Shown here: in pieces, positions 26,953 to 43,939 of the stretch | How the letters are laid out: every line of letters starts with the position of its first letter | Position numbering within the stretch: the first letter of the stretch is position 1 | IMG/VR virus record: IMGVR_UViG_3300048014_000044 | Coordinates: 1-43,939 of that record | Origin: a virus | DNA: 43,939 bases | Reading direction: 5' to 3' (one strand) | Translations under genes and position numbers: made by a program | Notes under the pieces: model-generated | Database searches by the model: none | Told to the model about the DNA's origin: nothing | The model's input: only the letters and a program-made list of their open reading frames with translations

Positions 26953-29900
26953 CGCGCCCTCCGGTCGTAGCTCATCTCGACGTCGCCGTAGCGGCCGATG
27001 ATCTCGTCCAGATCGACAGCCGAGACCTCGAAGGCCACCTTCACCGCCTCGGGCGTCGACTCGGGGTGAACGTTCTGGCCCGGCGCGAGCCCCGCCTCTC
27101 GAACGAACACGCCGAGGGTGGGGGGATCGCCCGGCTTGCGCTTCACGCGCTCTTGCGAGCAAATGACCTGGAGGTCCGTCTTGGCGCGCGTGATCCCCAC
27201 GTAGGCCAGGTTGCGCTCCGAGATCATCCGGTCTTCGATGTGCGTGTGGGCGCGCTTCACCGCGTACTCACGCTCGTCCGGCGGCCACGGGATGCGAGCC
27301 CCGAGCTTCTGGAGTTCGGTCTCGAGGAGCGTGCTGTCGTCCTTCTTCTTCCCAGGGAAGAACCCGTAGGAGCAGCACAAGGCCACGTGATCCCACTGGG
27401 CGCCCTTGACCGAGTGAACCGTCGAAAGCGAGAGCTGGTCGGGGTTCAGGTTCTTGTCTTGGAGCTTGCGGGATTCGGTCTTGTAGCGATCGAGCTTGCG
27501 GTAGAAACCTGTCGCCTCGCCAGGGTTGACCCCGAGCGCCTGGTCCTTCGAGTTCGGACGAGCGATGTCGAAGAGGTAGCGCACGGTTCCGAGACCAGCG
27601 AGCGGGTCCGGCTTCTCGCTCGCTGGCGCACCTTCGCCGGGAGGGGCGTTGGGATCGGTGAGGTGCGTCCCGTGCTCGTCGATCGTGACCTTCTTCTCCG
27701 AGTCGGGCGCAGGCTCGTCGTCGTCGGGATTGCGGTTGAAGGCGATCGATTCCTTGATGGACTGCTTGAGCGAGACCGTCTTGCGCGTGTCCTGCTGCGT
27801 CTTCTTGTTGTAGTAGCCGACCTCGGTCGTGATGCCGTCGAGGATGCGGTTGAGCAAGTCCTCGGTCTTGACATTGCTTCGCATCTGTGTGCGAAGGTCC
27901 ATCACCTGTCGGCCCATTTCGAGGAGCTTGTCGGTGAGCTTGTCGACGTCCTCCCACCACATCCAGTCTTCGCCCTTGTAGCGAATCTGGTCGGCAAACC
28001 ACCCACCACGCTCGCGTTCGAGCTTGCGCGCCGCCGCGATCTTGGCGGCCCGGTACGGCTCCTTGAGGTCCGCGGCGAGCTTCTTCGCGATCTGCGGCCG
28101 GGTGAGGCAGTCGAGCGGGTTGAAGCTGCGGACGTCCACGCCCTCGGCTTGAGCGATGCCCTTGAGGGAGTCCTTGACGATCCGTTCGATGGCCTCGTCC
28201 CCGAGGAAGATCTCTCGGTTCGGCGCATTGACCGTGTGGACCAAGGCTTCCGTCAGCTCCTCGTTGTCCGAGGAGAGCGCGAGGTCCATGTAGCCGAGGA
28301 CGGCGTTGGACTCCGTGCTTTCGAGGAATCCCTTGCCCTTGCTACGGCGGTACGGGATCTCGTGGATGATGCACTGGTCCTCGAACGCATTCAGCTCGTT
28401 GTTGGTACGGCTGAGGACCGCGAAGCCCTTGGCCCACGTCGAACCCTCGACGGCCTTGGTCTTCTCGAAGGACTCGATGATGTCGCCCGCGATGCCCACG
28501 TAGCTCGGCGGGGTCTCGACCACGATGCTCGCGCGCCCCCGCGGCTTCTTCGGGTCGGGCCGCGCCTGCATCTCGATCTGGCCCGTGTTGTGGGCCGTGA
28601 CCTTGTTTGCCGCCTCGACGATCTCGGGGTCGCAGCGGTAGTTCGTCTGGATCTTCCGCGTGACCCAGCCTTCCTTGCCGTCGAGGGCCGAGAAGAGGCC
28701 CGGCCGCGCGCCGCGGAACTGGTAGATCGCCTGCTTGTCGTCGCCGACGATCCAGAAGCTCTTGCCCGACCCCGGCTGCACCTGGTCGGTCATCATGCGG
28801 AAGATGTCGTGCTGCACGACGTTGAGGTCCTGAGCCTCGTCGACGAGCACGTGGTCGAACATCTGGTTGGCGGCCTTCCGAGCCGCCGGGTCACGCTCCA
28901 AGATGTCGCGGAAAATGAGGAGCATGTCGTTGAGGTCCGCGAGCCGGCGTCCATCGGCGCGGAAGTCGCGCATGAACTTCTGGAATGCGGCGGAGGGGCG
29001 CGGCGGCTTCCAGTCGGGTCCACGGTCGCCCTTGAGGCCGGCGTAGACCTCCATCCACACGGCGCCGTAGACCTCTTCCACGGTCTCCGCGCCCTTGAGC
29101 GCGGTCTCGAAGTCCACGTCGTTGCCGAGCCAGTTCTCCTTCAACTGGTTGCAGAGCTTCGCCGGAGGGGCGCCCCCAAAGAGCTTCTCGGGCAAGCCGG
29201 TCATCGCCGCGAGACCCCCAGGGCCGATGTCGCGGATGACGGCGCGAACCGCCGCGGTCATTTGGCGCGGCGTCGGGGCCTTCTTCTTTCCGCGATCTCC
29301 GACTCTCTCGCCGGTCTCGTCGATGACGAAACCTTCCTCGCCCTCGTCCTCGTTTTTCTTGCCGCGAGGCGTGGCGATGAGGCTCCCGTCCGAGAGGGCC
29401 GCGCGCTCGGCATCGTTGCCGAACCCCTTCTTCCCGTTCGTCCCGATGAAGTTGCGGAAGACGGAGTGCATCGTTCCGCACGTCACGGAGTCCCCAGCCG
29501 AGCCCAGCTCTTTGCCGATGCTCGCCCGCAGGTCTTCGGCCGCTCTCGTGTTGAACGTCGCCACGAGAATGCGCGACGGCGACTCGTGCTTGACCTGGAT
29601 GAGGTACTTGAGCCGGCCCACGAGCGTCGTGCTCTTGCCGGCACCTGCACCGGCCGCCACGAGCACCTTGCCGTCCGTGAGCGCCGCCGCCCGCTGCTCC
29701 TCGTCGAGCGGGTACCCGCCGACCGTGAGGGCCGCCTTCATCGCGGGGCTATCGGGGTCGGTGGCGATGGCTGTAGCAACGGCCGTGGCGATGCCGGTGG
29801 CCTCGCTCCGCGTGACCGGCCGGTCCGGCGCCTTGACCATGTCGAGCGCCGCTTTGGCCGCGTCCGTCGCGTGGTTCTCGATGCGGGCGAGGGTGTTCGC

Positions 29901-30566
29901 CTGCGCCGCCTGAGCCTCGGCGTGAACTTCGGAGGAAGCGACCGCCCCCTCCTGCGTCACCTTCTGGTCGAGAAGGTTCTGGGCGTCCTCCCCGACTTGT
30001 TTGACCGCCTCGTGAACCGGGTTGACCGCCACGACGGGCTTGCCCGCCGCGTCGGCCGCATGGCCTATCCAGCCCTGGAGCCGCTTGTTCTTGAGGGAGA
30101 TGGTCGAGAACTTGACGAGGGCTTCGGCCGACGCACCCGAAGTGGACGCCTCGATGGCATCCGAAACTTCCTTGCGGGCGCGAATCGAGGTCCCGAAGAC
30201 ATGCTTGAGGGACGACGGGCCCCCGCGTGTGAGGACCGTGCGGAGCTTGAGCGCCCGCATCGAGCACCCCTTGGCGCTCGTCGGGTACTTCATCGACGCT
30301 TCGAGCATCTTCAGCGCGCCAGGGGACTTGACGCCCGCTTCGATGACGGAGCGCACCTTGTCGAGGTGATCGCGCTCCATCATCTTCGCGAGCATGCCTC
30401 CGCGCATGAACAGCGCGTCGGCCTTCTGTCCGGTCTCCTTGAGCCAGCGGAAGTAGGTGTCGAAAGCGAGGAGGAAGACGAGGTAGTCCGCGACTTCCAG
30501 CTCGCTGAACGCCTCTTCCTGTGTGGCCTCGTCCGCGAGGAAGTGGCGCTGGTACTCGAATGCCAT
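26949..30566 (-). CDS. UvrD/Rep-type superfamily 1 helicase with extra N-terminal domain
   Basis: A 1205-residue protein with all SF1A helicase motifs. Q motif LDEEQRAAAL (about residue 287), Walker A GAGAGKST (306-313), motif Ia ATFNTRAAEDL, motif II VDEAQD (575-580), motif III WIVGDDKQAIYQFRG, motif IV QTNYR (640-644), motif V TVHSVKGAQWD and motif VI YVGITRAKTDL. These support an active 3'-5' DNA translocase. The first 280 residues are not helicase-like: helical, with Ala/Thr/Glu-rich repeats near 200-270, and might be a docking or virion-targeting domain. The start is ATG 30566, 26 bases after the sheath stop. The gene is embedded between sheath and tube genes and stop-start coupled to the next. 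Possible roles are repair or replication with late timing, DNA handling during packaging or ejection, or a defence-related function. Confidence 0.93.
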   Translation of the reverse strand: MAFEYQRHFLADEATQEEAFSELEVADYLVFLLAFDTYFRWLKETGQKADALFMRGGMLAKMMERDHLDKVRSVIEAGVKSPGALKMLEASMKYPTSAKGCSMRALKLRTVLTRGGPSSLKHVFGTSIRARKEVSDAIEASTSGASAEALVKFSTISLKNKRLQGWIGHAADAAGKPVVAVNPVHEAVKQVGEDAQNLLDQKVTQEGAVASSEVHAEAQAAQANTLARIENHATDAAKAALDMVKAPDRPVTRSEATGIATAVATAIATDPDSPAMKAALTVGGYPLDEEQRAAALTDGKVLVAAGAGAGKSTTLVGRLKYLIQVKHESPSRILVATFNTRAAEDLRASIGKELGSAGDSVTCGTMHSVFRNFIGTNGKKGFGNDAERAALSDGSLIATPRGKKNEDEGEEGFVIDETGERVGDRGKKKAPTPRQMTAAVRAVIRDIGPGGLAAMTGLPEKLFGGAPPAKLCNQLKENWLGNDVDFETALKGAETVEEVYGAVWMEVYAGLKGDRGPDWKPPRPSAAFQKFMRDFRADGRRLADLNDMLLIFRDILERDPAARKAANQMFDHVLVDEAQDLNVVQHDIFRMMTDQVQPGSGKSFWIVGDDKQAIYQFRGARPGLFSALDGKEGWVTRKIQTNYRCDPEIVEAANKVTAHNTGQIEMQARPDPKKPRGRASIVVETPPSYVGIAGDIIESFEKTKAVEGSTWAKGFAVLSRTNNELNAFEDQCIIHEIPYRRSKGKGFLESTESNAVLGYMDLALSSDNEELTEALVHTVNAPNREIFLGDEAIERIVKDSLKGIAQAEGVDVRSFNPLDCLTRPQIAKKLAADLKEPYRAAKIAAARKLERERGGWFADQIRYKGEDWMWWEDVDKLTDKLLEMGRQVMDLRTQMRSNVKTEDLLNRILDGITTEVGYYNKKTQQDTRKTVSLKQSIKESIAFNRNPDDDEPAPDSEKKVTIDEHGTHLTDPNAPPGEGAPASEKPDPLAGLGTVRYLFDIARPNSKDQALGVNPGEATGFYRKLDRYKTESRKLQDKNLNPDQLSLSTVHSVKGAQWDHVALCCSYGFFPGKKKDDSTLLETELQKLGARIPWPPDEREYAVKRAHTHIEDRMISERNLAYVGITRAKTDLQVICSQERVKRKPGDPPTLGVFVREAGLAPGQNVHPESTPEAVKVAFEVSAVDLDEIIGRYGDVEMSYDRRAR

Positions 30567-30592: not shown

Positions 30593-33500
30593 TCAGATTT
30601 GAGCGCGCAGATTGAACGTCAGGACGAGGTACTCCAGGGGGAAGATCGGCTGGTAGTACGCCTCGAAGAGGAGGACGGTGGGGTCGTCGGGGCTGATGCT
30701 CGAGGAGATCCCCGTGAACGCTCCGACGATCTCCGCTTGGACGAGCTGCTTGAACAGCGCCGTCATCGTGACGTTGACTTCGTTCGTGCGCGTCGAGAGG
30801 AACTTCGTGCCCACGAACTGGTCGAGGGCCTGACGCGACTGCTGCTGAACGAAGTCCGCGATCTGCGTGACGGTGGGCAGCCGGGTGAGAACCGACTGCA
30901 TGTTCGTCGTCAGACCCTGACGGATGCGGACGAGGTTGGTCAGGGCCTCGATGAGAGTGACGCCCGCGACCGCGGTCTGGTTCGCCGTCACCGGGTCGAG
31001 CGTCCGCGGGATGCTCGTGAAGCCCTGGAGGCGGCGGCGCGTGTACGGGGTCGCGACGTCGACGGACGGGCTCACGACCGCTCCGGCCACCGCGGCGGCG
31101 AAGAAGGTGCCGTCCACGACGGATTCGGTGGCGTTCCCGAGTTCGTCCGTCAGCGTGATGATGGAGCTGTCGGGGTAGAACGCGACGATGCGGCTCGAAA
31201 CGAGGCTCTGAGCCACAGACTGTGCGGTCTGCGGCGTCGTGCCCGACGCGAACCCGATGAAGCCCATCCGCTCCGACTGGTTCTGGATGAGGCTCATCGT
31301 CTCGCAGCTCTGCGTGAGGTACGAGTAGACGGCCGTGCTCGTAGCGAGCGGCACGATGATGTCGGGCTTGATGTTGCCGGGGAGCGGCGTCTGGAGGCCC
31401 TGGATGGCGTTGATGAACGACGTGTCGCTCGCTTGGTTCGTGTTCGGAACCTTCAGCACCTGCTGGATGCCGACGAGGAGCGACCCGTTGAGGATCGCGA
31501 GGTACGCCGCGAGGGACACGCGGTTCGACGCCGAGACCGTACCGAACGCAGCCTCGATGGACGAGAGCTGGCGGTAGATCGCCGGGGAGAAGTCCTGCTT
31601 CATGTACTGGTAGGACAGGAAGTAGAAGTCCCCGATCCCAGGCGCGACGCCCGAGGGGTTGAACGTCTGGATGGTCCCGGTGTCCGCGACGTTGACGCCA
31701 ACGGTGTTCGAGACCGTCGTCTCGAGGCCGGGAATCGCGTACCACGGACGAGCCGGGTTCACCTGGAAGGTCTGCGAGACCGTCATGGTGAAGCTGCCGC
31801 CGAGGTCGTAGCTCCCCGTCTGGGCCGGGAGAACCGTGAACCGGAGACCCGTCTGGGCCGCCGTGAACGTGACGCCGGGGATACCCGTGCCGGACGAACC
31901 CGCGGCCCCCGCGCTAGAGGTAACCGTGTAGTTCTCCAGCACGTCCTCGCCGTTGTCGCCGTCCACACCGGGGGTGAGCCCGATGTTCGTGCTCGTGTTG
32001 AACGCGCTGCTGTTGAGGAACGAGATGCTCGAGGCGGCAGCACCCGTCGTGAGCGACTCGAACGTGATGTAGTTCGCGCCGTTGATGGCGTCCACGTAGG
32101 CGACCCCACCGGCCGCGACGAGGCCCTGCGAGAGCAGTTCGTCCACGACCTCCTGGGCCTTGACCTGCTGCTGGCTCGCCGCCGTGTTCGTCGTGAACCC
32201 GAGGACCGCGTTGGCCGAGCCGTTGCCGATGAGGAGCGCCGACTTGGCGTCGTTGCTCGGGCTCGTCAGGCGGAGCTTGCCCGCGTTGCCGAGAGTTCCG
32301 TCCGACGCGACACCCGAGAGACCGGGCACCGCGTTGATGGCACCCACCACCGCCGAGATCGTCACCGATCCGCCCGGCAGCGTCACCGTGTACTGGATGC
32401 CGTTGACGCTGAGGACGAACTGGTCGTTGAGACCCGTCGTGATGTTGAACGGACCGGCGATCGAACCGAGGAGCGTCGCCGGCTTGTTCACCGCACCGGG
32501 GGTGCCCGCCCCGGACTGGAACATCGTGAAGCCGAGGAACGTGTTGGTTCCCGGCTCGTTGCTGGTCGTGACCGTCGTGGCCGAGTTGACCTTCACCGCC
32601 GAGACCGCATCGAACCCGCCCGGCAACGCACCGGGGGCCGTGTAGCTCTTGACGATGAAGAAGACGTCGCCCGTGGACCCGCCGATCTGCGCGAACGACG
32701 CGAGGTTGTTCGGTGCAGTGCCGCTGAACGCCGCGTTGGCGTCGATGGCTGCGTTGATCGCGGCCACGATGGCGGTCGGAGTATGCGCCCCCGCCGTGAG
32801 GGTCACCTGGACATCGACGCCGTCGATGAGAAGGTCGAGGACGTTGTTCGGCGAAGCGTCCACCGTGATGTGACCGCCGCTGTCGGGCGTCAGGTGGCCG
32901 CTCACGATGTAGCCGTGAGCCGCAGCGTCGAGGTTCGCCGTGAACGGCGTCCCGTTGACGCCCATCGACCACGTGGCCGAGTACGGCGAGAAGAAGTTGT
33001 ACGGCTCGGCGCTGCGGTTCGTGAACGCCGCGTTGGCCGCGGGCTCCTGGCCGAACGTCACCGTGACTGTCTCGGAAACCGGCGTTCCCGAGCCCGTGTG
33101 GAACGCATCGGGGATCGTCTCCGACCCGCGCGGCCACTGGATGGTCTCCGATATGCCCGTCTTGGTCCCGAAGAGAACCTGGTAGAGGTTCTGACCGGAC
33201 GCCGAATCCGTGACCGTGTACTGGCCCGTGCCCACCGGGCCGGGGACCTGGCAAGCCAGGACATACGTGTCGTCGCTGACGTGGTTGTAGTAGAACGTCG
33301 CGAAGACGGTCCAGTCCGGCGGGATCGGGTTCTGGAGCGTGATGGTGCGGTTCACGCCGTCGACGACCGTGACCGTCTGCTTCGGACGGTTGAGGGCGTC
33401 GCGGAGGCCGCGGCCCGCGTAGACCTGCACGAGGTCGGGCCGATTCGTCACGAGGTCAAGACGGCTGTTCGTGACCGTGTTGAACAGGGTCTGGCCGAGC

Positions 33501-34882
33501 GTCGTGTCGCGACCGTTGCCCGTGGTCGGGATCTCGGGGAGCACGAACTGCGTCGCCGAGACCTTGGCCGGGATGACCGTCGTGTCCGTGACCGGGTTGC
33601 AGGTCGCGAGGTAATACTTCGCGTCCACCAGGAGCCCGGTGATCTGGGAGCTGTTGAACTGCGTGCCGCCCGTCGAGGTCGAGCCAGCGGCGACCGTGAA
33701 GCTCGTACCCCACGAGATGATGCTCGTGTCGGCCGTGGGGTTCGAGACCACGAAGTCGACGTTCTGGATGTAGTCCGCGCGACCCGGCGAGATGCCGCAC
33801 CGGAGGACCGTCGTCACGAGGCTGTTCGGCAGGTAGTCGAACGTGTTCTGCCAGGTGTTCGCGAAGTACTGGATCGTGACCGTCGTGCCAGGCGCCGGAG
33901 CGTAGGGCAGCGTCACGATGCCGTTCGAGCCGTCCACGGCGCTCGCGATGACCTGGGCGTTGTTGACCTTGACGACGACCTTGCTCGGGTCCGTCGTGGT
34001 GACGCCGCCGCCCGTCCCGTCCACGATCGGACGCTGGAACACGCGGAACTGCGTGTTGCGGTTCGTCTGCGTGTTGGCCGTCCACCCGAGAACCCCGTTC
34101 GCCGTGCCCGATCCGATCTGGAGGGACGACGGAGCCGTGAGCTGGAGGTGGTTGAGGCCCTGGCCGTCCGTGTAGACGGACGCCTGGAGGTTCGCGATGG
34201 ACGCCGCGTTGAGCGCCGTAGCGAGGTTCGACGCGGTGATCGCCGTCCCGGCCGGGAACGTCACGGTGCTTGAGACACCGTTGACGAGCACCGTGAACTG
34301 GTCGTTCGAGCCCGCCGTGATCGCGAACGGCTCGTACCCTGGCGAGATGAGCGAGGCTTGCGCCTGCGTCACCTGCGCCGACACGTCATCCGTGAAGCTC
34401 GTGTCGCCGCGGTGGAAGTAGTACGTGCAGAGCACGTGATCGGTCGGCTGGGTCGGCACCTGGAGGGTGACGATGCCCTTCGCACCGTTGACCGCCCCGA
34501 CCGAAACCGGCACGCCGTTGACCGTGACGGTCACCGTCTGCGGGTTGTTGGTCACGCGGCCGATGCCCGTCCCGTCCGTGACCGGGAAGTTGCGGACGAC
34601 GAACTGCGTCAGGGTGCCGGTTTGGGCGCCGAGCACGAGGTTGTTCGGGTTCGTCGCGTTGACGACCCACTGGAGGCTCACGTCCTCGTTGACGATCTGC
34701 TGGTCGAGGGTCGCCGACGACCCGCGGACCAGTTCGAGGTCGTCTTGCTCCAGCGTCTCCTGCCCAACCCCGATGACAAACGGGATGCGAAGCCCGGCGA
34801 CGATGTTCGCGACGTTGGCTTCGGTCAGCGTCCTCGTGTAGACGCCGGGCGGGACGTAGGTGATGAACGGTCCGAGCGACAT
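30593..34882 (-). CDS. Tail sheath protein, greatly enlarged by beta-repeat insertions
   Basis: This 1429-residue protein starts at ATG 34882 with GAGGGA upstream. The N-terminus (GPFITYVPPGVYTRTLTEAN) and the C-terminal 400 residues carry the conserved contractile-sheath core: MKQDFSPAIYRQLSSIEAAF, a SVVDGTFFAAAVAGAV segment, RRRLQGFTSIPRTLDP and a closing LVLTFNLRA strand, all typical of sheath subunits whose neighbours interlock by terminal extensions. Typical sheaths have 380-700 residues. Here about 1000 residues lie between the N-terminal arm and the core. They include three flagellin-IN-like repeats (about residues 183-267, 670-786 and 810-895) and a second module repeated near 93-165, 277-352 and more weakly 488-545. 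Such insertions should project from the sheath surface. Sheath identity is strong. Confidence 0.9.
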   Translation of the reverse strand: MSLGPFITYVPPGVYTRTLTEANVANIVAGLRIPFVIGVGQETLEQDDLELVRGSSATLDQQIVNEDVSLQWVVNATNPNNLVLGAQTGTLTQFVVRNFPVTDGTGIGRVTNNPQTVTVTVNGVPVSVGAVNGAKGIVTLQVPTQPTDHVLCTYYFHRGDTSFTDDVSAQVTQAQASLISPGYEPFAITAGSNDQFTVLVNGVSSTVTFPAGTAITASNLATALNAASIANLQASVYTDGQGLNHLQLTAPSSLQIGSGTANGVLGWTANTQTNRNTQFRVFQRPIVDGTGGGVTTTDPSKVVVKVNNAQVIASAVDGSNGIVTLPYAPAPGTTVTIQYFANTWQNTFDYLPNSLVTTVLRCGISPGRADYIQNVDFVVSNPTADTSIISWGTSFTVAAGSTSTGGTQFNSSQITGLLVDAKYYLATCNPVTDTTVIPAKVSATQFVLPEIPTTGNGRDTTLGQTLFNTVTNSRLDLVTNRPDLVQVYAGRGLRDALNRPKQTVTVVDGVNRTITLQNPIPPDWTVFATFYYNHVSDDTYVLACQVPGPVGTGQYTVTDSASGQNLYQVLFGTKTGISETIQWPRGSETIPDAFHTGSGTPVSETVTVTFGQEPAANAAFTNRSAEPYNFFSPYSATWSMGVNGTPFTANLDAAAHGYIVSGHLTPDSGGHITVDASPNNVLDLLIDGVDVQVTLTAGAHTPTAIVAAINAAIDANAAFSGTAPNNLASFAQIGGSTGDVFFIVKSYTAPGALPGGFDAVSAVKVNSATTVTTSNEPGTNTFLGFTMFQSGAGTPGAVNKPATLLGSIAGPFNITTGLNDQFVLSVNGIQYTVTLPGGSVTISAVVGAINAVPGLSGVASDGTLGNAGKLRLTSPSNDAKSALLIGNGSANAVLGFTTNTAASQQQVKAQEVVDELLSQGLVAAGGVAYVDAINGANYITFESLTTGAAASSISFLNSSAFNTSTNIGLTPGVDGDNGEDVLENYTVTSSAGAAGSSGTGIPGVTFTAAQTGLRFTVLPAQTGSYDLGGSFTMTVSQTFQVNPARPWYAIPGLETTVSNTVGVNVADTGTIQTFNPSGVAPGIGDFYFLSYQYMKQDFSPAIYRQLSSIEAAFGTVSASNRVSLAAYLAILNGSLLVGIQQVLKVPNTNQASDTSFINAIQGLQTPLPGNIKPDIIVPLATSTAVYSYLTQSCETMSLIQNQSERMGFIGFASGTTPQTAQSVAQSLVSSRIVAFYPDSSIITLTDELGNATESVVDGTFFAAAVAGAVVSPSVDVATPYTRRRLQGFTSIPRTLDPVTANQTAVAGVTLIEALTNLVRIRQGLTTNMQSVLTRLPTVTQIADFVQQQSRQALDQFVGTKFLSTRTNEVNVTMTALFKQLVQAEIVGAFTGISSSISPDDPTVLLFEAYYQPIFPLEYLVLTFNLRAQI
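32200..34336 (-). repeat. Flagellin-IN-like and second-type beta repeats in the sheath
   Basis: Type 1 copies, about 34336-34084, 32875-32527 and 32455-32200, share x-N-D-Q-F-x-x-x-V-N-G-x-x-x-T-V-T-x-P-x-G, then an Ala-rich helix with A-I/L-N-A, then L-x-L-T-S/A-P-S and a final V-L-G-F/W. This matches the Flagellin_IN motif of hook-filament proteins. Type 2 copies (about 34606-34390 and 34054-33827) share VDGTG, V-x-V-N-x, V-x-G-x-x-G-I-V-T-L. The copies alternate and are related only at protein level. Confidence 0.7.
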
Positions 34883-35014: not shown

Positions 35015-35455
35015 CTAGCGGCCCTCTCGAGTCTCCTTGGCCGCCTGGAGCCGGGAGAGGGCGGTTTTCGCCAGATTGCGGCGGGCTTCCCGGCCGGCGG
35101 GGTTCAGGCCCTCGTACTCCACGTAGTTGTCGCCCGTCCGGCGCATGAGCGCCGGGCTACCACCTTGCGCCCGCACCTGCTGCTTCACCTTGTCCCGTTC
35201 GGCGTAGTGCGCCCACCTCCGCTCCGCATCCCGGCCCACCGCGTGGTCGGCGGTCGGGTAGTCTTCCTTGTGAACGCCCGAGTTGCCCTCTTTGGCCGGG
35301 TCGCCCTTGAACCCGAAGGCGAAACCCTCGAGGACGCGCGGGGCAAGTTCCCCGCAAGCCGGACATTCGAAGCTCGGCCAGTTTTCCTGCTTGAGCGTGC
35401 GCTCGAAGCGAAGGTTGCACCCGTCGTGCTGGCATTCGAACGTGTACTTCGGCAT
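35015..35455 (-). CDS. FmdB-like zinc-ribbon protein
   Basis: A 146-residue protein starting at ATG 35455. Its first 45 residues match the FmdB/CxxC zinc-ribbon start: MPKYTFECQHDGCNLRFE, then FECPACGELAPRVLEGF, with Cys at 8 and 13 and a CPAC pair. The rest is charged and helical (RRWAHYAERDKVKQQVRAQG). FmdB-type ribbons are common single genes in phage late regions and usually lack a known role; they may bind nucleic acid or act as small structural zinc proteins. It is the last gene before the sheath gap. The zinc-ribbon call is good. Confidence 0.82.
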   Translation of the reverse strand: MPKYTFECQHDGCNLRFERTLKQENWPSFECPACGELAPRVLEGFAFGFKGDPAKEGNSGVHKEDYPTADHAVGRDAERRWAHYAERDKVKQQVRAQGGSPALMRRTGDNYVEYEGLNPAGREARRNLAKTALSRLQAAKETREGR

Positions 35456-35464
35456 GGCCCATCC

Positions 35465-36613
35465 TCATTTGATCTTCTCGAAGGCCGAGTTCCGGCCCGC
35501 GAGTACAGGTACGGTCGCGAAGAAAAGGTCGGAGGCTGGCTGCTGGTCCGGCCTCGGAATCGTCTGCTCGATGCGCTGGATCGTGAGCGGCAGCGGGATG
35601 TGGATTTCCCAGTCGGCGCGTAGCTGCACCGAGACGGTCGAGTTGTAGTACATGAGGTCGGCCGTCTCGTCGTAGGTCTCCTCGACTTCTCCGCCCATGG
35701 ACACGTCGAGGATCTCGATGCCCTCGAATTCGAGGATGGGTTTCTTGACGCCCCAAAGGGACATCACCGTGAAGTCCGTGACCTCCTCCATTTGAACCGG
35801 GTCCTGGGAGATCACGTTCAGCTCGAACGTCAGCTCGTACTTCCCGCCGTAGGCGTTGGCCGCGTCCACGCGGTCGGGGTAGACGACCACGGCCACCTTG
35901 TCGCCTTTCTTGGCGCGCTTCCCGAACGCGAGCACGACGCCGGGAAGCGTCGTGAAGTCCGCTTGGTTCCACTGGAACTTGATGGGCTGCGTCGAAGGCT
36001 GCGGGTAGCGATAGTCGGCGTTGAGGACAGTCTCCGGCGCGAAGTTGCGGAGGAGCGAGATGCTCCCGTTCTCGTAGTTCACCGAGAAGTCGGTCCCCTC
36101 GACGAGCTGGACCCGGTGGTTTGCCCAAAGGCGGACCGTGCCCTTGAGGGGCACGTTCTGTAGCTGGGCTTCACGCTCGACCCCGGTCACGAACTGGAGC
36201 AAGGCTTCGTCCGTGACCGTGAGGAGCGGGTCGATGACGTACCATCCGTACTCGCTCGCGTTCTCGGGCGCGTGGAGGATCTCGATGTAGTAGACGCCGG
36301 CCGCCGTGGGAAAGTACCCGTGCTCGGCGACGCACCGAAGATCCTCGCGTACCCACTCCAGCGGGTACGTAGGCGTTCCGATGTACGCGAGCATGACGTG
36401 GCTCTGGACCGTGCCGATGAAGTTGTCCCCGGCGAGCGCTACCTTGTTCGCCGAACTCCCTTTGACGACGATCCCGTACTGCGGACGCTCCGTGAAGACG
36501 AACTTGTTTTCGATGAACGGAACGATCTTGTTGTAGACGGGATGCCGCTCGAAGCTGTCCTTCAGCTCCAAGATGAGGCGTCGCTTGAGGGAGTTGACGA
36601 GGTAGTAGTACAC
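35465..36613 (-). CDS. Virion-type protein of unknown role, possible tail terminator region
   Basis: A 382-residue protein with a GTG start at 36613 (MYYYLVNSLKRRLILELKDS), a few bases after the preceding stop. It has beta-rich repeats of hydrophobic and charged residues: FERHPVYNKIVPFIENKFVF, VKGSSANKVALAGDNFIG, a VEGTDFSVNYENGSISLLRN stretch, and VNEGS-like strands. The opening helix followed by a beta protein recalls neck or tail-terminator proteins placed before the sheath in myophages. No motif proves this. It is likely a capsid-tail joining or virion protein; confidence in a specific role is low. Confidence 0.68.
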   Translation of the reverse strand: MYYYLVNSLKRRLILELKDSFERHPVYNKIVPFIENKFVFTERPQYGIVVKGSSANKVALAGDNFIGTVQSHVMLAYIGTPTYPLEWVREDLRCVAEHGYFPTAAGVYYIEILHAPENASEYGWYVIDPLLTVTDEALLQFVTGVEREAQLQNVPLKGTVRLWANHRVQLVEGTDFSVNYENGSISLLRNFAPETVLNADYRYPQPSTQPIKFQWNQADFTTLPGVVLAFGKRAKKGDKVAVVVYPDRVDAANAYGGKYELTFELNVISQDPVQMEEVTDFTVMSLWGVKKPILEFEGIEILDVSMGGEVEETYDETADLMYYNSTVSVQLRADWEIHIPLPLTIQRIEQTIPRPDQQPASDLFFATVPVLAGRNSAFEKIK

Positions 36614-36615
36614 GC

Positions 36616-36954
36616 TCAGGTCCCGACTTTTTCGTCAGTCCCGTCCCACACGAACTCGCCGTCCTCGCCCACGGGGAAGTGCGTGCCGCACGCGCAGCAG
36701 AACGTGCCGTTGTAGAACTTGGGGTTGCGAGCGTAGGTCTCCGCGAGGGCCGTGCCCATGGTCGTCACGGAACCGCACTTGAGGTGGATGTACGACCGTC
36801 GCACCGGACGGACGAAACCCTTGGCGCGCTCCTCGGCCGTGAGGACGAGGTAGTCGACCTGCTGGCCGTCGGGACGGAGTTTCGTGTGCTCCCCGTAGGG
36901 GGTGCCATGGATGGTCTCGGCTTCCCCTTGCCCGGTGACGATCTTGCTGCTCAT
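36616..36954 (-). CDS. Small Cys-containing protein coupled to the actin-like gene
   Basis: A 112-residue protein starting at ATG 36954 and overlapping the actin-like gene's TGA (ATGA). It contains HLKCGSVTTMG and FCCACGTHFP, so Cys and His pairs could bind one zinc. The first 45 residues have DYLVLTAEERAKGFVRPVRR. The frame is open further upstream but overlaps the actin gene there and reads as shadow. Its coupling suggests a functional link to the actin-like protein. The family is not recognised. Confidence 0.72.
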   Translation of the reverse strand: MSSKIVTGQGEAETIHGTPYGEHTKLRPDGQQVDYLVLTAEERAKGFVRPVRRSYIHLKCGSVTTMGTALAETYARNPKFYNGTFCCACGTHFPVGEDGEFVWDGTDEKVGT

Positions 36955-37970
36955 CCGGCGTGCTCCTCCATCGCGAGGACGAGGAGACCTTCGGCCACGG
37001 CCGTCATCGGGTCCTTGGCCATGCGGATCTCGGAGATCTGGATGGGAAAGCCCTTCTTCTTCACCTGCTCGAACTCGTCCTTGAAGACGGCCTCGAACCC
37101 GATGGCGCGAGTCGTTCCGCCCGAGATGATGAACGGGATGGGCTCGGGGAGGCTGATGGAGTTCTGGACCTTGCGGAACTGCACCGCGATGTTGTCGAGG
37201 CAGTACCGAATGAGGGCGCGGATGTAGAGCGCGATGGCCTCGGCCTCGCGGTCCCCGCCCGTGTGCGCGAGGTCCACGCCCTTCTCCTTGGTCGCGCACA
37301 CGCGGGCGGCCGTGCTCCCGAGGGCCTTGGCCGCATGCTGGTCGATCCAGTCGCCTCCGCGGGCGAGCGAGAAGTCCATGCCCTTGACGGTCTGGAACGA
37401 GAGGGCGACGTTGCACATGCCCGAGCCGAACGACACGGCGAGGCCGGAGAAGTTCGTGTCGGCGCACTGCGAGTAGATGATCGCCATCGACTCGTTCATC
37501 GGGTGCGGCGTGTACCCGTGCTCGGAGATGATCTTGCGGAACACCTCCTGGTGGTAGATGACGTCCTGGTCGGGGTCGTCGATGGGGCTCGCCGGAACCG
37601 AGTAGAAGCAGTGCTCCTTTTCCACGGTCGGCTCTTGGAGGACGTGGAAGACAAGGAGGCTCAGGATCTGCTGGGCTTCCAGTTCGCCAGCGGAGATCAC
37701 ACCGCGCGAAAGCGGCCGGCGAACCTCGCGCTTGAAGAGGTTCGCCATGTTGAGGGCGCTATCGCCGAGGACGACGAGATTGCCGTCCTTCTCAACGTAG
37801 TTCACCTTCGAGAGCCGGAGCGTCTTCTTCGCCTCGAGGTCGAGGTCGATGAAGGCGTCACGGATTCGCGAGGTCTCGACGCTATCGCCCTTGAGGGTGC
37901 TACGCGCCGAAACGATGTTCATGGTTCCGACGTCGAGTCCGACGCCGGGCTTGTACTTGGTGTCTCCCAT
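36951..37970 (-). CDS. Actin/ParM/MreB-like ATPase
   Basis: A 339-residue protein starting at ATG 37970 with GGAGATGAAAG upstream. The actin-fold signatures are clear: phosphate-1 loop GLDVGTMNIV (11-20), a NESMAIIYSQ segment with E159 at the place of the catalytic Glu of MreB, phosphate-2 loop LAVSFGSGMCNVALS (about 177-191), and adenosine loop IPFIISGGTTRAIGFEAVF (278-296). The length fits ParM/MreB relatives. It should bind and hydrolyse ATP and may polymerise. Phage actin-like filaments are known for DNA segregation or organising replication sites, but such genes normally lie outside the tail cluster. Here it lies between a Dps-like ferritin and a coupled small Cys protein. Actin-family identity is strong; filament formation is inference. 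Confidence 0.88.
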   Translation of the reverse strand: MGDTKYKPGVGLDVGTMNIVSARSTLKGDSVETSRIRDAFIDLDLEAKKTLRLSKVNYVEKDGNLVVLGDSALNMANLFKREVRRPLSRGVISAGELEAQQILSLLVFHVLQEPTVEKEHCFYSVPASPIDDPDQDVIYHQEVFRKIISEHGYTPHPMNESMAIIYSQCADTNFSGLAVSFGSGMCNVALSFQTVKGMDFSLARGGDWIDQHAAKALGSTAARVCATKEKGVDLAHTGGDREAEAIALYIRALIRYCLDNIAVQFRKVQNSISLPEPIPFIISGGTTRAIGFEAVFKDEFEQVKKKGFPIQISEIRMAKDPMTAVAEGLLVLAMEEHAG

Positions 37971-37992
37971 CTTTCATCTCCGTTTTCATCTC

Positions 37993-38010
37993 GAAGGCCG
38001 ACCGGCCTTC
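37993..38010 (-). terminator. Perfect hairpin between Dps-like and actin-like genes
   Basis: GAAGGCCG-AC-CGGCCTTC is a perfect 8-bp inverted repeat in the 50-base gap, about 10 bases after the Dps-like stop. No U-run follows. It may stabilise the upstream mRNA or reduce read-through, allowing different expression of the two genes. Confidence 0.5.
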
Positions 38011-38020
38011 CCTGAGGGCC

Positions 38021-38824
38021 TCACCCAGACTTCCACCGGGGGTCGTTCGAGCCGACCTTCTGGCGGTCGTAGGATTCGGCCGTCTTCTGCGAGGCACGCT
38101 GCTTGAGGAGGTAGACGTGTTCCTCGTGCTTGTCGGCCACGCCCTGGAGCAGGTTGTCCATGCCGTGCGAGAGCAGGCCGTGCTGCTCGAGGGCGCCGTA
38201 GACCAGCTTGAGGACGATGAGGGTGCGCAAAACCGCTCGGAGCGAGAGAAGCGCATGCTCGTCGGGGGTCGGGTTCGGCGGGGCGTCGGCGTAGAACGAC
38301 TGGACGACGGCGGACACGTGCTTGGCGTGAAGCACCGGGTGCGCGAGAATCGTGTTGCCCGCGCCCACCATGCGCTCGGCCACCTTGTCGATGTCCTCGA
38401 CCACGCCCTCGTAGAGCCGGTCGAAGAGGAGGTGGTCACCGTAGTAGTTCGGGCCCTGGGACTGCCAGTGGTGCGCCTGGTGGATGAGAGACTCGCCGCG
38501 GAGGAACGCGAGAAGCACGGAGAGGAGGCTCATCGGCATGTCGCCAAAGTCCGCCTTGATGTGCTGCATGATGACGAGGAGCGTCGTCGCCGCATCGGCG
38601 CCCGTCTTCTCCACAAGAGGGCGAACCTCGTCCTTGAGGGTCTTACGGTTCGCCGCGACCTTCGTCGCTTCGTCGGGCAGGTACGGCGGCCCGTGACGCA
38701 GAAGATCATAGGTCGTCGGGTCGTGCCAGATCGCGTACACGGCGTCGGCGTGCAAACCGGAGTAGGGGTCTTCGACCGGGACCCCGCCCTCGCGCAGCTT
38801 GTCCTCATCGGTCGGCATGCTCAC
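38021..38824 (-). CDS. Dps-like ferritin with complete ferroxidase centre
   Basis: A 267-residue protein starting at GTG 38824 (overlapping the previous TGA as GTGA) or ATG 38818. Residues 112-156 match Dps: IHQAHHWQSQGPNYYGDHLL, then EDIDKVAERMVGAG. By alignment with E. coli Dps, H119, H131, D135, D146 and E150 fall on H51, H63, D67, D78 and E82, with W120 on W52, so all five ferroxidase ligands are kept at the same spacing. The C-terminal helix DNLLQGVADKHEEHVYLLKQ also fits. About 80 extra N-terminal residues precede the usual Dps start. The protein ends with a basic tail closing in NDPRWKSG. Dps binds DNA and detoxifies peroxide and iron, usually as a 12-mer. Its position among virion genes suggests packaging, protection of phage DNA, or protein-cage use. 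Confidence 0.9.
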   Translation of the reverse strand: MSMPTDEDKLREGGVPVEDPYSGLHADAVYAIWHDPTTYDLLRHGPPYLPDEATKVAANRKTLKDEVRPLVEKTGADAATTLLVIMQHIKADFGDMPMSLLSVLLAFLRGESLIHQAHHWQSQGPNYYGDHLLFDRLYEGVVEDIDKVAERMVGAGNTILAHPVLHAKHVSAVVQSFYADAPPNPTPDEHALLSLRAVLRTLIVLKLVYGALEQHGLLSHGMDNLLQGVADKHEEHVYLLKQRASQKTAESYDRQKVGSNDPRWKSG

Positions 38825-39372
38825 GCCTTCCAGGCCGGATCGTCCGATGCGTGCTTCTTCTTCGGCTTGGCCTTGGGCGCACTCTGCTTCGGGCCAGGGG
38901 CCGCGCCGGGGCTCTTCTCGACCTGCTTGAGTTCCTTCTGGACTTCCGACATCTGGAACTTCTCGGGACGCTGCGGGACGCTCTTGCCCGAGTAGGGCGA
39001 GTGGACGTTCTGCATGCGAGTCGGAAGGAAAAACTCCTTGCCCGAGTCCTCGTCGACGTACTTCCAGAGGACCGGAGCCGACGCGAGCTTGCTCACGAGC
39101 GCCTGGGCCGCCGCCAGGACCGGCATGGCAGGGCCTTCGACCTGGCGGAGTTCCTTCTGCACCTCGGGGATCTGGTAGCGCTCGGGGTGCTGTGGGGCCG
39201 ACTTGCCCGAGAACGGCGAGTGGACGGTCGGAAGACGAACGGTGAGGAAGAATTCCTGGTTCGAATCGGGGTCCACGTACTTCCAGAGAACCGGCGTTGC
39301 CGCCTCCTTGCCCGCGAGCTTCTGCGTCAGGTTCTCGGCTTGGCTCAGCAAAGCGGCTTGGCGGGGGTGCAT
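38821..39372 (-). CDS. Two-copy domain protein with Lys/Pro tail, partner of the Dps-like protein
   Basis: A 183-residue protein starting at ATG 39372, preceded by AAGGAGA. It holds two copies of one unit at residues about 27-79 and 100-152: VLWKYVDPDSNQEFFL and VLWKYVDEDSGKEFFL, then VHSPFSGKSAPQ and VHSPYSGKSVPQ, then EVQKELRQVE and EVQKELKQVE. The tail is Pro/Ala/Lys-rich and closes with SDDPAWKA. That end resembles the NDPRWKSG end of the Dps-like protein, whose start overlaps this stop. The unit has no Cys, HNH or catalytic motif known to me. It may be a binding module that displays or recruits partners through the shared end. Confidence 0.78.
   Translation of the reverse strand: MHPRQAALLSQAENLTQKLAGKEAATPVLWKYVDPDSNQEFFLTVRLPTVHSPFSGKSAPQHPERYQIPEVQKELRQVEGPAMPVLAAAQALVSKLASAPVLWKYVDEDSGKEFFLPTRMQNVHSPYSGKSVPQRPEKFQMSEVQKELKQVEKSPGAAPGPKQSAPKAKPKKKHASDDPAWKA
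38917..39294 (-). repeat. Tandem duplication of a ~53-residue domain
   Basis: Copy 1 covers about 39294-39136 and copy 2 about 39075-38917, spaced by 73 residues (219 bp). Protein identity is high, with conservative changes (F/Y, R/K), but the DNA has diverged, so the duplication is not very recent. Confidence 0.85.
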
Positions 39373-39412: not shown

Positions 39413-39955
39413 CTACCGAGTCCCACCCTTGCGGAACTTTCGGAGCGCCGCGCCGGCCCCCGCAACCCCCGACCCTTCCGAGGTTTCGGACTTGACATCC
39501 ACGTGGGCCTCGACGTCCTTCGGCTTGATCTCCGAGGGGATGTACGTCGGAACCTCGATTTCGACGACGTCGGACGCCGGCTTGCCGGACGGCGCGGCAG
39601 CCGGAGAGCCAGGCGCCACCTGACCGCACGCAAGCATCCCGAGGATGGCATCGAGCTTCCCCCCGTGCGTATCGAGGGCCGAGCGGAGCATGCGGTTTTG
39701 CTCGACGAGGTGACGGTTCTCTTCGCGAAGGCGGTCGACTTCTCCGTCCGGCGCCGGCGGCGGGGTCGCTTGTCGAGGCACGTCGCGCGGGTCCAACTGG
39801 AAAAGCATGCCCTGGGCGATGAGACGCCACAGGTCCTTGCTCTTGGCAGCCTTCAAGGCAGGGATGGTCACCGTCGCCCGATGGGGGACGTCCATGGCGA
39901 TGTCCTCGATGAGGACGGTCTGCATCTTGAGACCGAGGACTCGAACGTCACTCAT
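39413..39955 (-). CDS. Hypothetical protein with central coiled coil
   Basis: A 180-residue protein starting at ATG 39955, overlapping the upstream stop (ATGA). An N-terminal beta part (VRVLGLKMQTVLIEDIAMDV) is followed by a Pro linker, a heptad region (VDRLREENRHLVEQNRMLRS) at about residues 73-100, and an Ala/Ser/Pro/Gly-rich tail with basic end (LRKFRKGGTR). No enzyme motif is seen. The coiled coil suggests an oligomeric structural or scaffold-like role near the neck genes. Confidence 0.68.
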   Translation of the reverse strand: MSDVRVLGLKMQTVLIEDIAMDVPHRATVTIPALKAAKSKDLWRLIAQGMLFQLDPRDVPRQATPPPAPDGEVDRLREENRHLVEQNRMLRSALDTHGGKLDAILGMLACGQVAPGSPAAAPSGKPASDVVEIEVPTYIPSEIKPKDVEAHVDVKSETSEGSGVAGAGAALRKFRKGGTR

Positions 39956-40452
39956 CGCCGAGAAATGGCCCTCCTAGCCTGGTTCACGTACTCCCTGTAG
40001 AGCTTGTCCCGCATGAACGCCCGCGCTTCCTGGCGGGCCTTCTCGAGGAAGGTGCTCGGGGTCCGGCCGGGGTGCATCCACTTGCCGTCCGCCATCGACT
40101 TCGGCGTGGCCGAGCGGAAGATGAGTTCCCCCGTCTCCGTGATGATGGGGATGGGCCGCTTGGCCTTGGTGAGCCACGTCATCTGCCCGGCGCGCTGCCC
40201 TCCGACGATGTACCGGAACGCCGGGTGCTTCGCGATGATGAGGAGGCTCGACGGCTGAACTTTGATCTCGATGGTCCTCGCGAGGGCCTTCTTCGCACGC
40301 TCCGAGAAAGTTTCTTGTGTGAGCTTGGCCTTGATCCGCTTGAGCATTTCGTTGCGCAGGCGGCGCAATGCGGAGGTCGGATCGATGTTCTTGAAGTCGC
40401 CCGTGAGCGGCCTGAGGTACGTCGTCTTGACCTTGAAGATCGGGCCGGGCAT
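39952..40452 (-). CDS. HK97 gp10-like tail completion/neck protein
   Basis: The 166-residue protein starts at ATG 40452 (MPGPIFKVKTTYLRPLTGDF), 1 base past the upstream TGA. It has a helix with alternating charges (RRLRNEMLKRIKAKLTQETF), a beta pair (LLIIAKHPAFRYIVGG), and a HPGRTPSTFLEKARQEARAF segment. The H-P-G-x-x-P-x-x-F-L-x-x-A pattern is typical of HK97 gp10-like/tail-completion proteins that join tail and head. The frame is open further upstream but that part is shadow of the next gene. The position just downstream of the neck-type gene supports the call. Confidence 0.72.
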   Translation of the reverse strand: MPGPIFKVKTTYLRPLTGDFKNIDPTSALRRLRNEMLKRIKAKLTQETFSERAKKALARTIEIKVQPSSLLIIAKHPAFRYIVGGQRAGQMTWLTKAKRPIPIITETGELIFRSATPKSMADGKWMHPGRTPSTFLEKARQEARAFMRDKLYREYVNQARRAISRR

Positions 40453-40453
40453 C

Positions 40454-41848
40454 TCAGTACTCGATGTTCTCCCACACGGGGGTACGGCCTCGGAGCTGCT
40501 CCTCGACGGGGACGTCTGGCTTGTTGGTGATCGCCGTCGAGGCTTCCTGCTCGGGGCCTGACGGCTTGAACTCGACGTAGGTGTACTTGCGCGGCTGGTC
40601 CATCGGCACGCGGTAGCGGATGTCCTTCTCGTCGATGTGCCCGATGGTGAAGTGTTGCTGGAGCACCATGCCGCGGTTCGACGGCAGCCGGACCGCCCCA
40701 ATCGAGTACCTGTCGCCGTTGAGCTTCACGAGGAAGTCCCGGTGGCGAAGTAGCGGCGAGGGACCCGTCCACACCTCATACGAGTGTTCGACGGTCCGCC
40801 CGATGTCCGACTGCCGCACGCGCCGGTCGCCGTCGTCGGGCGCGATGATGGCGTCGAACGGACCGTCGTAGCCGCCGACGAAACCGACGCCGTAGCATAG
40901 GGGGTCATCGTTGATGGGCTGCCCGTGGTAATCGTCGGGGATGCACGGGCAAGGGATGCCGTTCGTCTTCTGGAGAAAGAACTTCACACGCTCGCCTCCC
41001 TGCTCGAGGATGAAGCGGTTGCGACGAACGGCCTCCCGCCAGATGTAGTCGAGCTTCTCGATCTCGTAGTTCGAGACCTGCGTGGCCTCTTCGAGCGGGG
41101 TCTCGATGAGGTCCTGCGGCTGCACGGTCGAGAGCGGCACGTTGATGGGGATGCCGACCGCCGTGATCCGGTAGAAGACACGCACCATGAGGTCCGTGCG
41201 GAGGAGTTTCCTCAGCCGGACATACGAGCACGTGACCCTGCTCCCCGGTTTGGGGATGACGAACTGCTGGTAGGTCTGCGTACCCGGCTCGTAGGTCGCC
41301 TGATTGACCCCGTGCCACGACGGGTCGTAGGGGTAGCCGGCGTCGATCTCGACTTCGCCAGTGCGCCCGTAGACGCGGAGTACCCGAGCTTCCTGCCCAT
41401 CGACGAACACACGCACGTCCTCGGGCTCGTGGGCAAACACGCCCTGCGAGCCCGACTTGATGATGGGGTTGTAGAGCGTCTTGAAGACGTACCGAGGGGC
41501 GTCGGAGCCGGACGCGGAGCACTCCCCGAAGAGGACGAAGTTGTCGCTCACGTCCTCTTCGACGATGCGCTCCGTGTCCGTCCTGTCCCGCCAGAAAGTC
41601 GAGCCCACCGGAACGCTCGTGACGCGCTCGTAGGGACCAAACTCCGAGTCGAAGCTCCGGTAGACGTTCACCCCACAGAGCACGAACCGGCTGTTGAGCG
41701 AGAGCGTCGCCGGGTCATCCCACTGGATGTCGTAGACGCCTGGATGAAACCCGCTCGTGAGGAAGACGTTGAGCGGTGGAGCCGGCCAAGGGGTCTTGGT
41801 CAGCTCCAGCTCGGTCGGGCGGCGGTCCCTGTTGCTCGCGTAGGGCAT
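40454..41848 (-). CDS. Neck/virion structural protein with Fn3-like start and Cys motif
   Basis: A 464-residue protein with ATG 41848 and AGGGAGT before it. Residues about 24-100 look like a fibronectin-III-like beta sandwich (PLNVFLTSGFHPGVYDIQWD, LCGVNVYRS, YERVTSVPVGSTFW). Residues about 300-345 carry IPCPCIPDDYHG, then DPLCYGVGFVGGYDGP, the C-P-C...C-x-G-x-G-x-x-G-G-Y motif I associate with phage head-tail joining proteins; it may bind zinc. The C-terminus holds further beta strands (RDFLVKLNGDRYSIGAVRL). It belongs with the neck or connector proteins. The exact counterpart is not certain. Confidence 0.75.
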   Translation of the reverse strand: MPYASNRDRRPTELELTKTPWPAPPLNVFLTSGFHPGVYDIQWDDPATLSLNSRFVLCGVNVYRSFDSEFGPYERVTSVPVGSTFWRDRTDTERIVEEDVSDNFVLFGECSASGSDAPRYVFKTLYNPIIKSGSQGVFAHEPEDVRVFVDGQEARVLRVYGRTGEVEIDAGYPYDPSWHGVNQATYEPGTQTYQQFVIPKPGSRVTCSYVRLRKLLRTDLMVRVFYRITAVGIPINVPLSTVQPQDLIETPLEEATQVSNYEIEKLDYIWREAVRRNRFILEQGGERVKFFLQKTNGIPCPCIPDDYHGQPINDDPLCYGVGFVGGYDGPFDAIIAPDDGDRRVRQSDIGRTVEHSYEVWTGPSPLLRHRDFLVKLNGDRYSIGAVRLPSNRGMVLQQHFTIGHIDEKDIRYRVPMDQPRKYTYVEFKPSGPEQEASTAITNKPDVPVEEQLRGRTPVWENIEY

Positions 41849-42667: not shown

Positions 42668-43177
42668 TCACTCGCCCGCGCCGGCCTCGGACAGGAGCTT
42701 CTCGATGTCCTTGGTCGTCTTGCCGAGGTCGGCCACCCAGTCCACGAAGAAGTCGAAGGCGCCCTTGAGGTACTCCCACGCCTTCACGAGCGCGCCCGAG
42801 AGGAAGTCGAGGAGACCCGCCGTGCGCGGGGCCACCGCCGGCGCCTGCTCGGGGCCGGGGACGTCCATGCCCTTGTCGAAGCGCTCGATGGCGTTCTTCA
42901 GGCTCTCCAGAACGGCCTTTTTGCCGAGGTCCTTCTCGGCCACCATCATCATGAACTGGAACTCCTTCTCGAACTCGATGGCGTAGTTCGCGGCCTTGTC
43001 CTTCTTCTCAGCCGCCTTCGTCAGCGCTTCGAGCTGTTCCTTGGCCTTGGCGAGTTCCTTCTCGAACTTCGCCATGTCGCTCTTGGCCTCTTCGAGCCAC
43101 TTCTGCTTCTGAGCGACGCCCTTCTGGCTCTTGGCCTTCGAGAGACCGTACTCGGGAAGTTGCTCAAAGTTGGTCAC
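42668..43177 (-). CDS. Coiled-coil protein with amphipathic C-terminus, just downstream of TnpB
   Basis: I start at GTG 43177 (VTNFEQLPEYGLSKAKSQKG), with AGGTGG 8-13 bases upstream; this overlaps the TnpB TGA as GTGA. The 169-residue product has a long Lys/Glu/Ala coiled coil (WLEEAKSDMAKFEKELAKAK, residues about 25-70), a mid helix, and a Phe/Trp-rich amphipathic segment (DFLSGALVKAWEYLKGAFDF). The in-frame extension upstream lies in the TnpB 3' region and reads as non-coding. Its native start may have been replaced when the TnpB element inserted. It is likely a virion or scaffold-type protein. Confidence 0.7.
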   Translation of the reverse strand: MTNFEQLPEYGLSKAKSQKGVAQKQKWLEEAKSDMAKFEKELAKAKEQLEALTKAAEKKDKAANYAIEFEKEFQFMMMVAEKDLGKKAVLESLKNAIERFDKGMDVPGPEQAPAVAPRTAGLLDFLSGALVKAWEYLKGAFDFFVDWVADLGKTTKDIEKLLSEAGAGE

Positions 43178-43939
43178 TGGGCAACCACCTGATTTGAGGC
43201 TGTGCCGGACCGTAGAGGTACTCCGGTAGTAAGCCTCCGGCTCGACGGTACGAGCGCGTTCTGTACTGACTCTCCCAAGGAACTCGTTCGGCAATGTGCC
43301 CGAAATCGCTCTCTCAGCAGTGTCTTCACTGCGGACGGGTGATCATCAAGACCAACTTGTTTGTCCTCGGAACGTCCGAGCAAGTTGATCCCTCCCACCA
43401 CGTCCGCGTGACTTTTCCTGCCGCATGAGCGGCAGATGAACTTGATCCCTGACCTATTGCTCCTGGAGACGTAGCCGCAGCTAGGGCATGTCTGGCTTGA
43501 GTAGGCGGGGTTGACGACCTCGCAGGGGGCCTTCGTGGCAAGGCTGTGATGCAAAGCTCGATAGGCGAAACGCTTGGCCCCCCGGCAGCCGCGAAGGTCG
43601 AGATCCTCAACGACGAACACGGCGCTGGGGTGAGCTTCCACGAGCTTGTTTGCACACTCACCGGCCACTGTCTTGACCAGCCCAGTGAGCTTGGCTTCAA
43701 GGTAGTCGAGCCTGGGCGAGTTTTCCTTGAATCCTTGTCGTTGTCGGTTCGCTCGAAGGTTGCGAACCTTTTGGTACAAGGTGTCGAACTTCGGTTTCAA
43801 CGAGGCTCCGAGAAGCCTCCCTGACGACGTAGCGGCCATCACGTTGAGGCCAACGTCAATGCCGATCTTGGGGGCATCCAGATCACGCTCCGGCACTTCC
43901 CATTCCTTGCGCTCGACGACCTCGAAGCGCCATCGGCCT
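43174..43939 (-). CDS. tnpB: TnpB RNA-guided nuclease, 5' part outside window
   Basis: The frame is open through the right edge; 254 residues are visible. RuvC-I is KIGIDVGLNVMAATSSG, RuvC-II is FVVEDLDLRGC, the zinc finger is CPSCG...CRSCG, and RuvC-III is HADVVGGINLLGR, so the catalytic acids and zinc ligands are present. It is of a different TnpB lineage from the one at 10077: spacing, zinc-finger loop and ending (DDHPSAVKTLLRERF) all differ. The upstream residues WRFEVVERKEWEVPER continue the wedge region. It reads in the same direction as the tail genes and its stop overlaps the GTG of the next gene. No tnpA is visible. It is probably intact, subject to the missing part. Confidence 0.92.
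   Translation of the reverse strand, partial: GRWRFEVVERKEWEVPERDLDAPKIGIDVGLNVMAATSSGRLLGASLKPKFDTLYQKVRNLRANRQRQGFKENSPRLDYLEAKLTGLVKTVAGECANKLVEAHPSAVFVVEDLDLRGCRGAKRFAYRALHHSLATKAPCEVVNPAYSSQTCPSCGYVSRSNRSGIKFICRSCGRKSHADVVGGINLLGRSEDKQVGLDDHPSAVKTLLRERFRAHCRTSSLGESVQNALVPSSRRLTTGVPLRSGTASNQVVAQ
43174..43939 (-). mobile_element. Right part of a second TnpB element, edge-truncated
   Basis: The tnpB gene and its guide-RNA-like 3' region mark a second insertion of the IS605/IS607 type. Its right end is close to the GTG at 43177 of the downstream gene. The left end is outside the window. Confidence 0.6.
43178..43300 (-). ncRNA. Candidate omega RNA overlapping the TnpB 3' end
   Basis: A hairpin at 43210-43248 has a 7-bp outer stem with one mismatch (CCGTAGA with TCGACGG) and an inner CCGG pair. 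It lies in the tnpB 3' end, where reRNA/omega RNA is encoded. The encoded peptide here (TVEPEAY-type in another frame, Arg/Ser/Thr-rich in the tnpB frame) looks constrained by RNA rather than protein. Limits are approximate. Confidence 0.42.

Follow-up and report, generated by a model that had tools for sequence, protein, structure and literature searches.

The window, by which we mean the whole 43,939 nucleotide stretch of viral DNA that was analysed (IMG/VR record IMGVR_UViG_3300048014_000044), encodes a volactin-type actin, gene C, whose slot is a structural one inside the head-tail/tail module. The gene that precedes it in relatives, g39, ends in a motif that, as judged from profile comparisons, is common to g39 and the partners of cellular volactins in bacteria and archaea. 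We put at roughly 50% the probability that C forms a filament late in infection that g39 ties to a part of the virion, with a Dps-like protein, B, as an accessory.

All four of the minus-strand ORFs that a preliminary description of this DNA had joined into one cluster, A, B, C and D, are present at the coordinates listed here. Its account of their layout is also correct: A and B overlap in GTGA (A stop at 38821, B start GTG at 38824), C and D overlap in ATGA (C stop at 36951, start of D at 36954), and a gap of 50 bases around a perfect hairpin (GAAGGCC-GGTC-GGCCTTC) separates B from C. An ATG at 38818 is as good a start for B as the GTG. The identities given to the four products (a duplicated-domain protein, a Dps-like protein, an actin fold and a small Cys protein, respectively) likewise stand. 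The features of the region are as follows; the neck, tail and sheath labels of the slot genes come from weak profile matches and position.

30593 to 34882, minus strand: g30, tail-sheath-like, conserved, downstream (Phage_sheath_1C E 0.0066, below cutoff)
35015 to 35455, minus strand: FmdB-type zinc ribbon protein, conserved, downstream
35465 to 36613, minus strand: g35, conserved tail-region protein, immediately 3' of the volactin slot
36616 to 36954, minus strand: D, small Cys protein
36951 to 37970, minus strand: C, volactin-family actin, 339 amino acids (profile, AlphaFold2 model, structure matches)
37993 to 38010: hairpin with a perfect 7-bp stem in the B–C gap
38021 to 38818, minus strand: B, Dps-like ferritin, 265 amino acids (profile and solved-structure matches)
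38821 to 39372, minus strand: A, duplicated domain, about 75 residues per copy
39413 to 39955, minus strand: g39, proposed adaptor (fixed position upstream of C in relatives, structure model)
39416 to 39478, minus strand: C-terminal motif of g39, residues 160–180, ending ...SGVAGAGAALRKFRKGGTR, common to cellular volactin partners
39952 to 40413, minus strand: g39b, conserved, upstream of g39, exact start uncertain; probably a tail completion or neck protein, from its sequence pattern alone
40454 to 41848, minus strand: g40, conserved neck/connector-region protein

Elsewhere in the window, a TnpB/Cas12f-like protein is encoded just 5' of the neck genes (43174 to 43896, minus strand; PF07282 E 7e-13, OrfB_IS605 E 1e-4) and a UvrD/AddA-type helicase directly after the sheath-like gene, within the tail module (26949 to 30566, minus strand; PF00580 E 7e-42). 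A 574 amino acid tail-region protein with a phage lysozyme domain (14729 to 16453, minus strand; PF00959 E 1e-23) is probably a baseplate lysozyme.

Gene C encodes a volactin-type actin with an actin fold. It matches the Pfam Volactin family PF25216 with 253.4 bits (cutoff 35) over model positions 3–321 of 321, and at E 1e-20 the sole match to this model among 14 well-known control genomes is in Haloferax volcanii. The AlphaFold2 model of C, made from an alignment of 56 volactins, has a pLDDT of 94.8, and among solved structures it comes closest to the MamK filament (Z 28.7, 295 residues, 2.9 Å), the BeeR filament, MreB and F-actin. Residues D13, G15 and T16 (phosphate 1), E160, and G284 and G285 (adenosine) are invariant across the 56 volactins. 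At phosphate 2, Ser180 replaces the usual acidic residue, and since Ser is present there in 56 of 56 volactins it is a trait of the family rather than a sign that the phage copy has decayed. The H. volcanii volactin (HVO_2015), which makes dynamic filaments whose tips are anchored to the membrane and is alone in the family in having such filaments established in cells, shares with C the Pfam family (well above cutoff), the actin fold, the phosphate-2 Ser and, as seen in its Haloarcula and Natrinema relatives, an upstream gene with the common motif (PMC10869688). The two differ in that C is phage-encoded in a tail-gene operon, whereas the role of volactin in H. volcanii is in cell shape, and in that the adaptor is a soluble coiled-coil protein in the phage and a multi-TM membrane protein in haloarchaea.

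Relatives were gathered by viral contig searches (contigs up to 619 kb, all metagenomic records and possibly incomplete), and removal of near-duplicates at 97% left 71 volactins, 66 of the tail-slot type and five from other phage lineages. The g35, FmdB zinc ribbon and sheath-like genes lie 3' of volactin in 65 of the 66 distinct slot-type relatives, and g39 lies 5' of it in all 62 whose locus extends that far. Among the 45 loci of the close clade that reach g39 (volactin identity at least 59%), the slot contains B in 44 cases and A in 28, in the same order; in the sister group (identity 53–58%, n = 17) neither is ever in the slot (0/17), and volactin mostly follows g39 directly. This pattern indicates that the core is the actin plus g39, and that one clade acquired A and B or the other lost them. 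In a midpoint-rooted tree (the data themselves being unrooted) the slot volactins group together as a single clade with support 0.992, and their sister group is the volactins of Planctomycetota and Omnitrophota. We note that one 297-kb phage record (G025, the contig behind locus L077) carries two volactin genes about 160 kb apart. A second phage lineage (L128, L130, L131 and L133) has a diverged volactin (33–34%) with a Dps gene 2.5–4 kb upstream, a pairing that may be biased, as these loci were found via Dps.

The Dps-like protein B matches phrog_3636, the phage Dps-like family, with E 9e-11 and Pfam Ferritin with 24.1 bits, just under the 24.5 cutoff, and it has many Dps matches among solved structures (e.g. 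2chp, E 2.5e-5). With these proteins it has in common the core sequence and the ferroxidase residues H117, H129, D133, D144 and E148; all but D133 are conserved in every aligned phage Dps protein except one (130 of 131), and D or E is found at 133 in 114. It differs from Dps ferritins in a ~100-residue N-terminal extension and in being kept, in one clade, beside an actin in a tail operon. Iron oxidation and storage is the most likely activity of B, which would thereby protect the DNA pool. Protein A has a real internal duplication that gives two domain copies of about 75 residues; in the relatives read individually A has a single domain or none, and the duplication was not seen. A (S/D)DPxWK-like C-terminus, a pattern that was picked after inspecting the sequences, occurs in 5/28 A proteins and 7/49 B proteins (the window phage included) and in 0/476 products of eight other slot genes, and the two proteins may thereby bind a common partner.

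We give even odds to the reading in which Dps and A are mere passengers, carried in the late operon but functionally unconnected to the actin. The six sister-clade records that bear on this (volactin identity 53–58%; one is the twin of LR745208) all have Dps apart from the actin gene, by about 110–235 kb in five and by 18 kb from the nearer of the two volactins in G025, and many other phages (L121 to L162), like record G030, have a Dps gene with no volactin in the locus or record, respectively, all of which fits passengers. The retention of B in the slot in nearly all close relatives, the presence of a Dps gene in 16 of the 18 huge volactin phages tested, and the C-terminus that A and B have in common in some phages point the other way. 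The Dps-actin link is real in one clade yet not required.

The small gene D has no family match, and in relatives read individually its slot holds unrelated small ORFs or is empty; in L053/L116 a weak match to D lies between g35 and FmdB. As it is missing from the slot in the relatives read, D was rejected as a member of the unit and is judged a bystander. The hairpin was rejected as a conserved element, since stems of at least 6 bp are found downstream of B in 4 of 51 loci, a frequency not above that for other genes. The unit proposed in the preliminary description must thus be redrawn, because it left out g39, the constant partner of the actin, and took in D. Its central point, an actin-like ATPase linked to Dps within the head-tail/tail module, is borne out in the close clade. 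Of the conserved co-occurrence that it had asked of the four genes, that of C with B and, less often, A, in the same order, was found, and that of D was not. The separate homologues that it held would speak against a unit are seen for Dps throughout the six sister-clade records, whereas in the close clade Dps and actin remain linked.

The structure model of g39 consists of a folded beta domain (residues 1–55), a coiled coil (70–109), a disordered linker (110–163) and a C-terminal helix (165–176). As modelled, this is the build of an adaptor, with a head for holding, a tether and a candidate actin-binding helix. The N-terminal domain has no significant fold match among solved structures, and family comparison and the structure model revealed no recognised DNA-binding family or domain. 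Phage Mu gp38 (DUF2635), a candidate homologue of the N-terminal domain because of a weak BFVD match and its position just before the Mu sheath gene, was rejected at a profile comparison probability of 0.2%. The candidate g39 relatives gpFI and YqbF were likewise rejected, as their Foldseek E values of 1.2 and 3.6 are not significant.

The chromosomal volactins of Planctomycetota mostly have an upstream coiled-coil gene whose product has an ESNIxxVxVKxxxxxGGVxxxLxKLRxLRK-like end. An HMM of this motif was made from 25 planctomycete partner C-termini, which were chosen by position and included no phage sequences. Run over 32,977 ORFs of the phage loci, it gave nine best matches that are all g39, each at the extreme C-terminus. 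It placed g39 first among 119–456 ORFs in 34 of 70 distinct loci, which are related and so do not amount to 34 independent tests, and below tenth in 15; for the window phage, scored in the near-identical locus L002, g39 is first of 221 ORFs. Profile-profile comparison of the g39 end with the planctomycete partner end gave P 9e-5, whereas nine other cluster genes used as controls gave P of at least 0.42. An initial test in the reverse direction, with a phage-derived profile on cellular loci, reached E 0.03–0.08 only, and the planctomycete-derived HMM, made with more sequences, is much clearer. The gene before the haloarchaeal volactins (Haloarcula, Natrinema) encodes a multi-TM protein that carries the motif twice; a combined phage-planctomycete HMM ranked it first of 96–97 ORFs. 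In the second phage lineage a small TM protein with the end motif precedes volactin and ranked first in three of four loci. In LR756511 and L179 the protein encoded upstream of volactin has a different end peptide, which the motif profile misses. A search for natural fusions of adaptor and actin in a single chain found none.

Several cellular loci met in these searches deserve mention. The tandem two-motif multi-TM neighbour of haloarchaeal plasmid volactins (L223:1926-2834, L224:1980-2903) is a candidate volactin membrane anchor, and such a protein next to the volactins of relatives fits the anchoring of filament tips in H. volcanii (PMC10869688). Many Planctomycetota genomes (76 of 199) encode a volactin, often preceded by the coiled-coil gene (L182, L195 to L222), and the two are apparently an uncharacterised bacterial volactin system. 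In L179 (5336-7507) the volactin frame is split at the phosphate-2 loop by an intein-like insert of about 340 residues ending ...TIHNC. The Omnitrophota loci L175 and L176 have two or three volactins in tandem without a coiled-coil partner, those of L176 beside response regulators.

We propose the following working of the system. The volactin-type actin C, encoded among the presumably late tail genes, would be worked by the adaptor encoded upstream, whose basic C-terminal helix would bind the actin while the folded N-terminal domain, together with the coiled coil, would grip a part of the virion (neck or tail). That the filament would hold such a part is suggested by the presence of the motif on a soluble protein encoded amid neck and tail genes. 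PhuZ tubulin positions and moves assembling particles in nucleus-forming phages, and a C filament could similarly place, collect or transport heads and tails as they assemble late in infection, with B and A as accessories encoded between adaptor and actin in one clade. This role in late assembly is what C, as proposed, would share with PhuZ of the phiKZ-like jumbo phages, from which it differs in being an actin and not a tubulin. Neither tubulin (PF00091) nor PhuZ (phrog_4733) had a match in 18 huge volactin phage records, all searched with controls that did match (the window itself is a fragment), so actin may do in these phages what PhuZ does elsewhere. The nuclear shell protein chimallin (phrog_4795) had no match in the volactin phages, but none in the control genomes either.

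We consider it unlikely that C is instead a static structural or assembly factor that acts with g39, as a neck or tail part or a tail-assembly chaperone, and makes no cytoplasmic filaments. The slot is strictly among neck and tail genes, and C is about as conserved as the adjacent sheath-like protein (61–81% against 56–68% in the first relatives), as would be expected of such a factor. However, the structures closest to C are those of filament-forming actins, the filaments of the family's studied member are dynamic (PMC10869688), and chromosomal volactins, which have no tail genes, are accompanied by the same adaptor motif.

Less probable still is that C is tied to phage DNA, through g39 or a different protein, in a ParMRC- or AlpAC-like system that segregates the DNA or organises its replication. 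ParR binds ParM through its C-terminal helix, a precedent both for this alternative and for the binding proposed for g39; the g39 system differs from ParM-ParR in its structural slot, in its upstream adaptor and in having no recognised DNA-binding domain in g39. AlpA-AlpC of the Corynebacterium prophage CGP3 is the second precedent for the binding of actin by the helix and, like C and g39, pairs a phage actin with an adaptor whose gene lies immediately upstream (PMC4446434). The alpAC genes are early, however, and AlpA binds phage DNA (PMC4446434), whereas C and g39 lie in the tail module and the g39 model is a small beta domain plus coiled coil in which no DNA-binding part or family was recognised. 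The structural slot and this build of g39 likewise tell against the earlier suggestion that the cluster organises or moves DNA; its companion suggestion, the shielding of DNA, is plausible for the Dps B. It is very improbable that C disrupts the cytoskeleton of a volactin-bearing host, for example a planctomycete, by co-polymerising with or poisoning its volactin: the sister group of the slot volactins is that of Planctomycetota/Omnitrophota, volactin is common in Planctomycetota and the adaptor motif occurs on both sides, but phage and bacterial volactins used here are only 32–44% identical and one would expect a gene for host takeover to be an early gene.

Known phage cytoskeletons are mainly the PhuZ and TubZ tubulins plus a few segregation-type actins such as AlpC. 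The preliminary description knew of no system with this set of genes, and we found no paper on one; our literature searches, made mostly without subscription papers and preprints, also found no volactin title that names a phage and no paper on Dps with jumbo phages. The founding volactin paper never mentions phages (PMC10869688).

The preferred reading, a late volactin filament tied to a virion part by g39, suggests that these huge phages are served in their assembly by an actin filament where the well-studied giant phages use a tubulin. More tentatively, and with the odds somewhat against it, a large undescribed group of huge phages would move or gather its virions by volactin and g39 as a counterpart of PhuZ, and the end helix would be a volactin-binding motif used across archaea, Planctomycetota and phages. 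If true, the volactin fixed in the tail operon of many huge phages would be an actin-based counterpart of the phage tubulins, and the common adaptor motif would offer a concrete way to test how volactins in general, those of archaea among them, are attached to their cargo.
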